The position numbers and the translations under genes were made by a program. Source: Candidatus Mediterraneibacter faecavium (GTDB lineage: Bacteria > Bacillota > Clostridia > Lachnospirales > Lachnospiraceae). From it: 64,000 nucleotides of DNA. The notes below the pieces were generated by a model that was not told the DNA's origin, did no database searches, and saw nothing but the letters and a program-made list of their open reading frames with translations. The stretch lies in assembly GCA_019119995.1 (NCBI GenBank), contig DWVY01000028.1:1-64000 (forward strand), written 5' to 3'. Positions within the stretch are counted from its first letter, which is position 1. The number at the start of each line of letters is the position of its first letter. This document shows positions 13,347-45,624 of the stretch, in pieces.

Positions 13347-13402
13347 ATAAAAAATGAGACTTCTATTGCACGACGTTGTTATGTAATGCAATAAAAGTCT
13401 CA
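13347..13402 (-). terminator. Leader terminator (expression platform of the riboswitch)
   Basis: Minus strand: TGAGACTTTTATTGCA and TGCAATAGAAGTCTCA form a 16-bp stem with one mismatch, followed by TTTTTT. It lies between the promoter and the ATPase start, so it acts as a conditional terminator. Its 5' arm contains the GACTTTT that can also pair with AAAAG at the 5' end of the aptamer. Confidence 0.88.
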
Positions 13403-13490
13403 CTATTTAATCGCGATACGGATGGCACAGCCATCGTACTGACGATATCGCAAACGCTTGGCACAAGCGCCAGTTACTCCCTTTTACCAA
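13395..13490 (-). ncRNA. yybP-ykoY-type manganese riboswitch (leader aptamer)
   Basis: The leader begins AAAAGGGAGTAACTGGCG and contains TATCGTCAGTACGA and a closing GAGACTTTT. These match the landmarks of the yybP-ykoY class: a GGGAGUA box, a conserved UCGUCA(A/G)U loop, and a P1 helix made of 5' AAAAG with 3' CUUUU. The 3' strand of P1 overlaps the 5' arm of the terminator at 13347-13402, so Mn2+-stabilised P1 should prevent termination and switch the operon on. The downstream P-type ATPase is a known target type. I judged this by motif recall and context, not by a covariance model. Confidence 0.82.
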
Positions 13491-41919: not shown

Positions 41920-42438
41920 TCAGATCAGGATCACTATAAGGAAGATCCCGCTCATCACACCCAGACATCTGCCGATACGTGTTTTCGCCGCAAGGCTTTC
42001 CCTGAGCTTTTCGATCTCAAGATCTACCCGGTTCAGATACATTTGCAGTGTGTGATCCAGTGTATCCTGCTCCAGGCTCCCCAGAAAAGTACCGGGTTCT
42101 TTCATCAGGATCGAATGTTCCTGTTTTAATCCCAGTGGTTTCAGATATCTGTCCGCACATCGGCTCCACGCTCTGGCAAATCCGCTCTCCTCCCTCATTT
42201 CCACCGCCTGAGCAGTTTCAAGAAGCCATGTGCGGTACGGCTTTTTCACCCGCCTTGCCACCTCTGTAAATATTTCAGGCAGAGGAGCATGGGTATAAGC
42301 GATCTCGCCTTTGATCAGACTGAAAACATACCTCAGATAAAGCATTTTCTCCAGATATGCTTTCAGCTCCCTGCAATAAACATACCCAGCGCCGGTCGTC
42401 GCGGTAAGGATCAATATCCCGCCTATCACTCTCTGCAC
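41920..42438 (-). CDS. spoIIIAB: Stage III sporulation protein AB
   Basis: 172 aa. N-terminal hydrophobic helix, SYM-type cytoplasmic helical domain like secretion-system F proteins, and a C-terminal membrane helix (GVMSGIFLIVILI). GTG start with GGGGGAG 6 bases upstream; overlaps the spoIIIAA stop by 13 bases. Confidence 0.93.
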   Translation of the reverse strand: MQRVIGGILILTATTGAGYVYCRELKAYLEKMLYLRYVFSLIKGEIAYTHAPLPEIFTEVARRVKKPYRTWLLETAQAVEMREESGFARAWSRCADRYLKPLGLKQEHSILMKEPGTFLGSLEQDTLDHTLQMYLNRVDLEIEKLRESLAAKTRIGRCLGVMSGIFLIVILI

Positions 42439-43382
42439 AATACACTCCCCCGCTCGTCATAGATTCCACGGATCTCTCCCGGGTGTTCCTCGTTGCCGAG
42501 CACTACATACCGCTCGAACATCCTGCGCCGGATCAGCTCGCCGAGCACCGGTTTCTTCTTCGCCTCTTCCATATCAAGTCCGTGTACGCTTGCGATCAGT
42601 TTGCATCCGCACTGCATTGCATATTCTATCGCATGGATATCTTCACTTGTACCGATCTCATCTACAGCGATCACCTGGGGAGCCATCGACCGGATCAGCA
42701 TGATCATTCCCTCGGCTTTCGGGCAGCAGTCCAGGATATCTGTCCTGGAGCCCAGATGATTCTGGGCGATCCCAAGATAACATCCGCCCAGTTCGGATCT
42801 TTCATCGACTACACCTACCGAACACCCCTTTACATACTGGTTCCCGTCCGATATCTGGCGGATCAGGTCCCGTATGAGCGTAGTCTTGCCGCAGCAGGGC
42901 GGCGATATGATCAGAGTATGGCATACCTGTTTATTCTTCGTGATATACGGAAGCAGACCGTCGGCACACCCGATCACTTCATGCGATATCCGGATATTTA
43001 CGGATGATATGTATTGAATGTTCTTTACCTTATCCCGCTCCATGATCACTTTGCCCGCCACTCCCACTCTGTGCCCTCCTTCGATCGTCAAAAACCCCTG
43101 CCGCAGTTCGTTCTCATATGCATAGAGGGAGTAATGGCTGATATAGTCCATTGTCTCCCTCACTTCTTCTTTCGTTATGATATGCGGATCTGATTCTGAC
43201 GGCAGGATCTTTTCCCTGTTGCCGCGCACGATCCTCACAGGCTGTCCTGTCCGCAGCCTTATTTCCTGCAGTCCCTCAAGACCGCCCGCATCCTCCTGTA
43301 TGATCCTTCTGACACTCTTTGCCAGAATGCTTAGGATCTGTCCGTCTCTTCCCGTTTTCTGTTTTCTATCACTTCTTTCCAT
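42426..43382 (-). CDS. spoIIIAA: Stage III sporulation protein AA (ATPase)
   Basis: 318 aa from MERSDRKQKTG. Secretion ATPase-like: Walker A SPPCCGKTTL (a Cys pair where glycine is more usual), Walker B VIAVDEIG. The open frame extends to 43658, but its first 92 residues are encoded in the palindromic DNA upstream and have no family character; AGAGGTGG 5 bases before 43382 and a sigma-E-like promoter fix the start. Energises the SpoIIIA complex in the mother cell. Confidence 0.93.
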   Translation of the reverse strand: MERSDRKQKTGRDGQILSILAKSVRRIIQEDAGGLEGLQEIRLRTGQPVRIVRGNREKILPSESDPHIITKEEVRETMDYISHYSLYAYENELRQGFLTIEGGHRVGVAGKVIMERDKVKNIQYISSVNIRISHEVIGCADGLLPYITKNKQVCHTLIISPPCCGKTTLIRDLIRQISDGNQYVKGCSVGVVDERSELGGCYLGIAQNHLGSRTDILDCCPKAEGMIMLIRSMAPQVIAVDEIGTSEDIHAIEYAMQCGCKLIASVHGLDMEEAKKKPVLGELIRRRMFERYVVLGNEEHPGEIRGIYDERGSVLCRE

Positions 43383-43401
43383 CTTGTCCACCTCTTTACA
43401 C

Positions 43402-43430
43402 AATATATGTGGACCCACTGAAATTATGAA
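43402..43430 (-). promoter_or_regulatory. Sigma-E-type promoter of the spoIIIA operon
   Basis: TTCATAAT, 13-base spacer, CATATATT on the minus strand, close to the sigma-E consensus (GKMATATT, CATACAMT). It is about 20 bases before the start codon of spoIIIAA and directly abuts the outer end of the palindrome at 43431-43750. Confidence 0.65.
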
Positions 43431-43750
43431 TAAAATTCGTGTCTGTTTAACAGATGCCGCTGCAGCAGTAAGAATAACTACTAGGTGCGAATGTGGGACG
43501 CGGGAAAAGAGGATCCTGCAGCGCTGTGCCGACCCGCTCTGCCTCATCCCCTCGAATCCGTGTAACGCGAGGTCAAAATGCTCGTCCAAAGGGACTCGCA
43601 TTTTAATCTCGCTAACATGGAGAACGAGGTGTATTCGGAACGCTCCATGTCGATGCACAGCTTATGCAGTATCCTCTTTTTCCGCTGTCTCATCCGGCCA
43701 GTAGTCTTTCCCTCCTCCGCAGCATCATCCTTCAACAAACACTCATACAA
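43431..43750. repeat. Long imperfect palindrome 1 (about 320 bp)
   Basis: The halves 43431-43588 and 43589-43750 are inverted copies of each other, about 70% identical by eye. The centre is around 43588 (AATGCTCGTCC facing GGACTCGCATT). Good matches include AAAAGAGGATxCTGCA at 43504-43520 against 43665-43681, and the GCGAG..AAAATGC blocks beside the centre. Each half can encode a related peptide in convergent orientation (CLxDAA..TT..KRIL..C), in frames of 68 and about 90 codons with no ribosome site. No similarity to a known gene or element is recognised. Confidence 0.7.
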
Positions 43751-43810
43751 ACCGGAAGAGATCGGAACTTACTCGGCTAAGTCCACCATTTCGACCGGTT
43801 TCAAGTGAAC

Positions 43811-44169
43811 TTCGTGATTGCCGAAGTGAATGCTGGATTCGATAAAGTAGAAAACGGACGGAGATAAGGCGCAGAAAGACTTAAAAAGAGATGACCGGTA
43901 TGTGCGGAAGGCGACTTCGGAATAATCTGCCAGAAAAAGTTAAGGGGCTGGGAGCTGATGTTAAGCCGCAAAATGGATTGTCTGAGCCAGAGGCGAGTTA
44001 TCCATTTTGCGGCTTTGTCTTTAATCAGTTTCCAGACCCTTTAGTTTTTCTCAGATTATGGAGCGGAGCCTGAAGCACATGCCGGTCATCTCAAAGAAGT
44101 ATTTTAGCGCCTTATCTCCGTCCGTTTTCGGACTTTATCTCTATCGGCATTCAAGCCGGCAATCACGAA
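43811..44169. repeat. Long imperfect palindrome 2 (about 360 bp), overlapping the miaB stop
   Basis: Halves 43811-43978 and 44000-44169 are inverted copies (about 70-75% identical by eye) around a 21-base loop. Perfect blocks: 13 bp at the outer ends (TTCGTGATTGCCG at 43811-43823 and its complement at 44157-44169), 23 bp at 43850-43872 with 44107-44129, and 14 bp next to the loop (43965-43978 with 44000-44013). The right outer end contains the miaB stop codon at 44163-44165. No transposase or RNA family is recognised. Either a MITE-like element or a very large hairpin RNA. Confidence 0.8.
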
Positions 44170-45608
44170 TTCCGCTCCCCGATGTAGTAGAACCCCCTGC
44201 ATTCTTTGAGCAGCACCGGATAGAATTTCCCGATCATCGATGCATCTCCCGGGAAGTGGACGAGCAGATTATTGCTCAGCCGTCCTGTTACCAGGCTGCT
44301 GTCGTGGTCGTTTACGGATTCTACCAGGGCGGTCTGCACAGTCCCTTCATGGACAGCGCACGCTTCTGCGGAGATATCCTGTACTTCTGTGAGCAGTCTG
44401 TTAAACCGGTCTTTTACGATATCTTCCGGCACCTGATCCTCCATGACAGCGGCAGGCGTGCCTGTGCGCTTTGAGTAAATAAAGGTAAAAGCGCTGTCAT
44501 AGCGGACTTTCCTCACTACGTCCAGTGTCTCCTGAAAGTCTTCTTCCGTCTCTCCCGGAAAGCCTACGATGATATCTGTGGTCAGAGAAATGTCAGGTAT
44601 TGCATCTTTGATACGTTTTACCAGGTCGAGATATCCTTCTTTTGTATACCGGCGGTTCATCATCTTCAGGATCCTTGTGCTGCCCGACTGCACCGGCAGA
44701 TGCAGATGACGGCAGATTTTTTTCGACTCCGCCATGACCTGGATCAGCTCGTCCGAGAGATCTTTCGGGTGTGAGGTCATAAAGCGGATCCGCTCCAGTC
44801 CGTCGATCTTTTCGATCTCTTTTAGAAGCTCTGCGAACGTGATCGGCTGCTCCAGCGTCTTGCCGTAGGAATTCACATTCTGCCCGAGGAGCATAACTTC
44901 AACCACACCGTCGGCGACGAGACGTTCGATCTCCCGTATGATCGCTTTCGGATCACGGCTCCGCTCCCGCCCGCGCACATAAGGCACGATACAGTAGCTG
45001 CAGAAATTATTGCATCCGAACATGATATTGACTCCGGATTTGAAGGGATATTTTCTCTCTACGGGCAGATCTTCCACGATCTTATCTGTATCTTTCCAGA
45101 TATCGATCACCATGCGCCCGGACTCCATGCGGGTTGCCAGAAGTTCGGCAAATTTAAAGATATTGTGGGTGCCGAAGATCAGATCAACGAAACGATAGCT
45201 CTTCTTTAACTTCTCTACTACTTCAGGCTCCTGCATCATGCAGCCGCACAGAGCGATCATCATGTGCGGATTTTTCTTTTTGATCCTGCCAAGCTGCCCC
45301 AGACGTCCGTATACTCTCTGGTTGGCATTTTCGCGGACGGTACATGTATTATAGATGACAAAGTCAGCCTTTTCCTCTTCCGGTTCTTCGACATAGCCGA
45401 TCTGCTCAAGAATGCCGGTCAGTTTTTCTGAATCACGCGCGTTCATCTGACACCCGAATGTGGTAACACAAAAAGTAAGCGGCCGGCCGGCCGCCTCGTT
45501 CATTTTTTCCAGATATTTTTTTGCTTTATCAATAAAATAATACTGCCTCTGAGGTTCTGTCGACGGGATTTCCGTATCCTGTCCGGCAGCGTTCCATATA
45601 TTCTCCAT
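44163..45608 (-). CDS. miaB: tRNA-2-methylthio-N6-dimethylallyladenosine synthase MiaB
   Basis: 481 aa. N-terminal cluster domain with TTFGCQMNARDSE, radical-SAM CNNFCSYCIVPYVRG, and a C-terminal TRAM domain. It adds 2-methylthio to A37 of tRNAs that read U-starting codons. I use the ATG at 45608 rather than the TTG at 45620. Its last codons (AAT TCG TGA) lie in the outer arm of palindrome 2; the C-terminus GERNS is still of ordinary length. Confidence 0.95.
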   Translation of the reverse strand: MENIWNAAGQDTEIPSTEPQRQYYFIDKAKKYLEKMNEAAGRPLTFCVTTFGCQMNARDSEKLTGILEQIGYVEEPEEEKADFVIYNTCTVRENANQRVYGRLGQLGRIKKKNPHMMIALCGCMMQEPEVVEKLKKSYRFVDLIFGTHNIFKFAELLATRMESGRMVIDIWKDTDKIVEDLPVERKYPFKSGVNIMFGCNNFCSYCIVPYVRGRERSRDPKAIIREIERLVADGVVEVMLLGQNVNSYGKTLEQPITFAELLKEIEKIDGLERIRFMTSHPKDLSDELIQVMAESKKICRHLHLPVQSGSTRILKMMNRRYTKEGYLDLVKRIKDAIPDISLTTDIIVGFPGETEEDFQETLDVVRKVRYDSAFTFIYSKRTGTPAAVMEDQVPEDIVKDRFNRLLTEVQDISAEACAVHEGTVQTALVESVNDHDSSLVTGRLSNNLLVHFPGDASMIGKFYPVLLKECRGFYYIGERNS

Positions 45609-45624
45609 ACTATCTTCCAATCTT

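Follow-up and report, generated by a model that had tools for sequence, protein, structure and literature searches.

Between miaB and spoIIIAA of Candidatus Mediterraneibacter faecavium lies a composite palindromic element that belongs to a real, multi-copy and fast-evolving REP-like family, with exact placement at stop codons and of unusual size. Our main reading, to which we give a probability of roughly 0.6, is that the family consists of large, modular, apparently non-autonomous REP-like palindromes that occur in part of the genus Mediterraneibacter and replace native terminators. Both the termination and the movement are inferred, from the comparisons described below.

Structure, copies and distribution of the element

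The window (the whole 64,000-nucleotide stretch analysed) had been read, from its letters alone, as containing a 360-bp palindrome around a 21-base loop. That palindrome (P) is real, since arms, loop, self-alignment and fold agree, but it is the right half of a longer composite of module A, a short middle hairpin and P (Table 1). Self-pairing of positions 43811-44169 as one alignment gave 72.5% over 371 columns (E 9e-43), and the fold energy of P is -184.6 kcal/mol, compared with -87.2 +/- 5.1 in 100 shuffles (z -19). The arms run 43804-43848/44132-44176 (73%), 43850-43882/44097-44129 (91%), 43888-43912/44068-44092 (84%) and 43963-43978/44000-44015 (100%, 16 bp), the last pair enclosing the 21-nt loop; two of the perfect blocks reported earlier (13 and 23 bp) are there, and the third measures 16 bp, not 14. 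The composite element folds into three hairpins in succession (z -20), and in locus L180 the position of the middle hairpin is held by a 54-bp hairpin (89%). A self-alignment scan in 4-kb chunks (E <= 1e-5) found one further inverted repeat in the window, a 62-bp imperfect palindrome at 13348-13409 that is matched by none of ten family elements.

Table 1. Features of the composite element, its neighbouring genes and the RAYT-like gene (window coordinates unless a locus is named)
Feature	Position	Strand	Remarks
Whole composite palindromic element, 738 bp	43434..44171	.	module A, middle hairpin and palindrome P; borders from repeated ends and modules
Outer end of module A, AATTCGTGTCTGTTTA	43434..43449	+	faces spoIIIAA upstream region; end recurs in copies
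Module A, decayed palindrome, apex CATGGAGAACGAGG...CGCTCCATG	43434..43742	.	right border read by eye from fold
Short middle hairpin, A-P junction	43743..43808	.	borders read by eye from fold
Palindrome P, 363 bp	43809..44171	.	inner end ACTTCGTGATTGCCG, outer end AATTCGTGATTGCCGG read from right
Core hairpin of P, ~95 nt	43944..44039	.	flanked by A tract and T tract; terminator form on both strands
Apical loop of P	43979..43999	+	type TTGTCTGAG...GAGTT; motif also seen on other stems and in a second genus
miaB stop codon TGA, inside element end	44163..44165	-	read from sequence and ORF list
miaB, upstream neighbour, 3' end meets element	44163..45620	-	TIGR01574, 520 bits
spoIIIAA, downstream neighbour, same direction	42426..43373	-	TIGR02858 and PF19568; 315 codons read from 43373
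RAYT-like transposase gene	L320:1400-2167, own genome contig C41		bordered by inverted repeats of its own that contain GTAG

The sequence-only reading had noted that no transposase is present and that the outer end includes the miaB stop. Both observations stand: no transposase was recognised in the ORF list around the palindrome, the 68-aa ORF, the sole ORF of the window element searched, has no Pfam match, and the stop lies within the element. Its further suggestion that the element supplied or captured this stop survives in the first half, whereas a single capture is not borne out, since the stop-codon position is common in the family. A protein-coding module was rejected, as the short ORF of module A carries in-frame stops in many matched copies and has no Pfam match. 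Known RNA families gave no Rfam match at the gathering threshold (best sub-threshold match 28.5 bits, cut-off 150), and there is no tRNA in the window. The mechanical spoIIIAA ORF (window 42426-43658) begins within module A, and automatic annotation could over-extend the N-terminus.

The family is multi-copy and dispersed in its own genome, as a copy count proposed in the sequence-only reading now confirms. The P class of the window was found at 6 places (E <= 2.6e-91), with the five further copies matching over most of the length (81-93%) and shorter matches to the ends of P, and module A gave 50 matches at about 39 places, a manual count, as one place can fill several rows through fragments or its reverse strand. 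Allowing up to 2 mismatches, the 16-base outer end (AATTCGTGTTTGTCGG) is matched 68 times, inner ends included, and its reversed control 3 times. P has GTGTTTGTCGG as its outer and GTGATTGCCGG as its inner end, with GTGATTG at both in the window copy. Other copies and genomes have two long palindromes, sometimes around a short hairpin, and one copy in the same genome (C21) is palindromic across its full 914 bp. P itself comprises several sequence classes of similar length: 31 of 33 end-to-end units measure 348-385 bp (range searched 300-420 bp), an independent figure, while the lengths of 357-364 for aligned P copies depend in part on the projection of the query ends. The assembly, 90% complete, breaks at the element repeats: counted by eye, 33 of 132 contig ends have an element-end match no farther than 700 bp away, although one of these matches, on C7, seems to be there by chance.

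A search with the window element plus a short flank hit 17 of 41 genomes, namely 17 of the 25 from the same genus, the own genome included, and none of the 16 from other families; the matches in G001, G007, G008 and G015 are weak (E 4e-6 to 1e-4). The short ORF of module A is matched in 18 of 58 genus genomes and the element end (at most 1 mismatch) in 15 of 58, so the family in its present form is carried by a minority of the genus. The core of module A is matched exactly in 23 stretches, which come from Mediterraneibacter species (including the isolate Mediterraneibacter catenae SW178) and from uncultured MAGs with related labels. Other genera of the same taxonomic family gave weak matches in 7 of 298 genomes (two candidates scored per genome). 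Eight loci from weak-match genomes were opened, of which the two in G187 contain palindromes some 200 bp long whose apical loop is TTGTCTGAGCGAAGCGAGTT. An exact search for the loop pattern in 12 genomes hit four of them (G000 6, G002 2, G005 5, G187 3). One G187 copy (L337), inspected by eye, starts 78 nt past a stop and has a terminator-like hairpin beyond it. A phage or plasmid origin was rejected, since searches of plasmids and phages gave no match to the window element and viral contigs lack three family patterns. One contig end in G013 (L312, contig C47) has 256 bp of a miaB 3' end that is 90% identical to the window, beside a module A; the longer miaB match of that genome is 77% identical, which may reflect transfer or contamination. 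No description of this palindrome family was found in the titles and abstracts of the literature searched, a scope that excluded most subscription journals.

Placement at stop codons and terminator form

In the own genome, 58 of 85 outer-end matches have an ORF of 100 or more codons pointing at them and lie at -6 to +2 nt from its stop, and 31 stand at exactly +1, so that element and stop codon share one base (first of the element, third of the codon); the remaining 27 are not flush with a stop. This count dropped end matches with less than 300 bp upstream and set aside 28 inner-type ends, 3 of which have a stop close by; the 85 include some internal look-alikes. Control positions shifted 30-200 bp upstream fell within the same range in 11 of 4250 cases, a lenient null because shifted positions are mostly inside neighbouring genes. 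The stops at flush ends are TAA (33), TGA (16) and TAG (9), and this mixture argues against a single DNA motif. Convergent gene pairs are often bridged stop to stop, and in 11 of 14 complete elements, a hand-chosen list, both ends lie within -6 to +2 of convergent stops. As an internal control, the REPs that belong to the RAYT (REP-associated tyrosine transposase) of the same genome have 9 of 32 ends in this range, less exactly placed.

Sites in relatives were compared at the window locus and in convergent gaps. The by-eye comparison of the window site rests on G000, G002, G046, G017, G024, G044, G047, G061 and G064. Palindromes were found between miaB and spoIIIAA in G000, G046 and G064 (371, 299 and 373 alignment columns), the contig of G002 ends at the start of one, and G024, G044 and G047 have a short gap without the element. 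An inverted-repeat recheck, in which G002 and G017 were left unmatched, showed no long palindrome in G024, G044, G047 and G061, the stretch examined exceeding the gap in three of them. The miaB protein of G000 ends ...GERNS with its stop within the element, and that of G002 reads ...GELIK with a TAA just ahead of it.

For the convergent gaps, the flanks of ten loci were searched in six relatives and a gap was taken when a single contig carried both flanks close together (a G017 pair with 4 kb between the flanks was excluded), which gave 20 orthologous gaps plus L182 from seven loci at most; at three of the ten loci the flanks stand together in no relative. The three gaps compared in G017 (77, 128 and 176 bp) are without the element and hold short terminator-like hairpins, two by the inverted-repeat test and the third by eye. 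The other five relatives contribute 18 gaps, 14 with a match to one of ten G000 elements and 12 with a palindrome 100 bp or longer; neither is present at locus 7 in G020 (163 bp), locus 8 in G049 (790 bp) and locus 2 in G004 (194 bp). The comparison of empty sites proposed in the sequence-only reading thus shows the element present or absent at the same site in relatives. The best match often comes from another locus, so modules move between sites; locus 7 in G002, for instance, is 87% identical to the window element and 78% to the element of its own locus.

P has the form of a bidirectional intrinsic terminator, a stable hairpin with a U tract on both strands. The A5/T5 columns flanking the core hairpin are A-T paired in 32-34 of 34 aligned copies. 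On the + strand, site 44040 has the most stable adjoining hairpin of 1123 T-rich sites in the window (-51.0 kcal/mol), and the mirror site 43943 on the - strand ranks 14 among 1123 (-39.8 kcal/mol), by a score that favours long hairpins. A formal terminator scan that admits only loops of 3-8 nt gave a single weak site for this region, where 0.7 would be expected. Since elements occupy sites where a relative has terminator-like hairpins, bidirectional termination is suggested, and on the sequence evidence they probably act as two-way transcription stops after genes. RNA polymerase leaving either neighbour gene would run into the palindrome, the core hairpin would form and the U-rich tract would then free the transcript. 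The element would thus be a bidirectional intrinsic terminator with a long 3'-end rod, the successor to a native terminator, and one that ended the transcription of two genes would be hard to lose. The window copy sits between co-directional genes, and at this site the element-free G024, G044 and G047 show, by eye, no terminator, so here the element may hinder readthrough into spoIIIAA while replacing nothing.

Arm pairing, mobility and competing explanations

Pairing was followed in 34 P-class copies from 8 genomes (6 from the own genome and 28 from G002, G004, G013, G020, G049, G063 and G069), namely the matches spanning more than 280 of 363 bases in the loci collected. RNAalifold returned 81 pairs and double-sided changes in 34 of these. 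When the 137-pair rod of the window copy served as the structure, 88.9% of the cells were paired, a share that leans to the window copy because the rod came from one of the aligned sequences. Double-sided changes were found in 60 of the 137 pairs (35.4 +/- 2.9 in shuffles) and in 250 cells (98 +/- 7 in shuffles), statistics that count related sequences many times, and with the partner slid by 1-3 columns only 13-25 pairs had them. Further pair types were barely raised (130 vs 122.8, attained in 13 of 500 shuffles). Clear double-sided cases are columns 127-128/254-255, 172-173/213-214 and 189/195. The compensatory changes that the sequence-only reading had proposed to look for are thus there, and pairing is kept by them. 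At the apical loop, many aligned copies are capped, between AACTC and CTCA.ACA, by a UUCG-like loop on a 3-bp stem, and this small stem shows double-sided changes too. On the miaB-sense strand, G-U cells number 192 and A-C cells 287 of 4633; with G-U thus no commoner than A-C, there is no sign of selection specifically on the miaB-sense RNA. Pairing of this kind is compatible with DNA as the active form, with transcription from the opposite side, or with correction by, for example, template switching.

The last of these could also account for the pairing as a whole: a mutational process (template switching between the arms, or recombination between copies) may keep the arms complementary in place of selection, the elements being selfish or neutral. 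Excerpts of PMC8794818 argue that template switching creates and maintains hairpins, A-C is at least as common as G-U, and adjoining double changes occur without G-U steps (column 127 has CG in 21 copies and UA in 13, column 128 UA in 21 and CG in 13). However, the A5/T5 tracts and the loop motif stay while the stems change, which a pure correction process does not explain, and G-U pairs are present at other columns; we consider this account somewhat unlikely. A bolder proposal also draws on template switching. Here a selfish palindrome spreads without a transposase by taking over termination: copies would be set exactly at stop codons by a process that senses where translation ends (for example through mRNA cut or paused there), the native intergenic region is overwritten, the neighbours become dependent, and the arms are kept complementary by template switching and shuffled between loci. 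This we offer as a long shot. In our preferred reading of REP-like palindromes replacing terminators, spread and homogenisation would come from an enzyme acting in trans, or from inter-copy recombination or template switching, as may be the case for REP elements.

Two known kinds of mobile element bear on the question of movement. The elements could be ordinary MITEs, deletion derivatives of an IS that are moved by its transposase, with any function at gene ends incidental and the stop merely a tolerated site. Terminal inverted repeats, dispersed copies and presence or absence at a site all speak for this, and the outermost 4 bases are equal on both sides in 9 of 14 elements, as a 4-bp target duplication would have it, although AATT is its own reverse complement and is thus expected of inverted ends. 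Yet the outer 4-mers differ in the other 5 elements, five of the +1 cases have G as first element base and TAG as stop, and neither the 31 ends placed at precisely +1 nor the flush fit on both sides is easily explained by tolerance alone. A TA target duplication was rejected, since it fits TAA/TAA pairs and fails with a TGA stop. A base-exact empty site was not found, and no autonomous relative with the same ends was recognised in the loci opened, the own genome being 90% complete. Nor was a transposase recognised in the elements opened (Pfam searches of the module-A ORF and two G063 ORFs, and of whole genomes with PF01797 alone). In G063, the longest unit bounded by both ends (2.4 kb) contains two ORFs that have no Pfam match, which counts against a MITE origin and led us to reject it as a transposon unit. 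In that unit (L173:1784-4200, beside a gene that we take to be trxB) the ORFs of 308 and 277 aa lie between two palindromic stretches, and other genomes have a plain element there. All told, a MITE origin seems unlikely. A REPIN-like family moved by the RAYT of the genome appears very improbable. The own genome does have a RAYT-like gene (255 aa, Y1_Tnp; NF047646 at 68 bits, cut-off 80), adjoining what is presumably glyS, and the REPs of this RAYT also lie near stops. However, the gene is flanked by a different repeat (GGGGACGTAGTAAA..., 47 genome matches with both strands of a place counted) that shares nothing beyond 11-mers with ten family elements, and G060 and G063 have element ends with no Y1_Tnp match. 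In L320 and nine other loci the RAYT has other repeats at its flanks and no element end; the sequence thus gives no support to RAYT as the mover. A Y1_Tnp match of some kind is present in 49 of 58 genus genomes, in many as an ORF of 255-310 aa.

Relation to known repeats and meaning

The elements resemble REP, BIME and REPIN sequences in being dispersed intergenic palindromes that follow convergent or co-directional genes, beside the stop or supplying it (58 of 85 ends lie so here). According to excerpts of PMC3733652, in two species described those REPs that stand between convergent ORFs are mostly separated from either 3' end by less than 20 bp, and a TAG stop is often provided by a GTAG REP; together with the REPs of the own RAYT, this makes proximity to stops a REP-like trait, and what is unusual in the present family is the exactness of the stop placement and the size. 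REPs are 20-40 bp long with GTAG or CGTC tags and often a RAYT, whereas these elements are about 370-1300 bp, nested and modular; the 363-bp palindrome with its end AATTCGTGTTTGTCGG has neither that length nor such a tag, the RAYT of this genome is not flanked by the same repeat, and the elements have no sequence link to it.

Inverted ends, many copies and no conserved coding capacity seen are shared with bacterial MITEs, from which the family differs by its long self-complementary body, stop-to-stop placement, no clear target duplication and no parent transposon found. Rickettsia palindromic elements are longer palindromic repeats that touch coding sequence and lie inside ORFs. Ours are like them in length and in touching coding sequence, but are mostly found after the stop. 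RPE-1 and other Rickettsia palindromic elements are named alongside REPs in excerpts of PMC3733652. With bidirectional intrinsic terminators the elements share a hairpin with an A tract and a U tract between convergent genes, and hairpins with 4 A and 4 T have been proposed as such terminators in low-GC Firmicutes (excerpts of PMC1590033); those are 30-50-nt hairpins, whereas the element is a repeated family of hundreds of base pairs.

If the main reading is true, the 3' ends of dozens of genes in one gut genus would be formed by a mobile nested palindrome that has replaced native terminators. Beyond the practical point that such repeats also break short-read assemblies, the family would provide a case in which selection for paired arms and correction by template switching might be told apart, a way to test what places REP-like repeats at stop codons, and a natural experiment on repeats turning regulatory.
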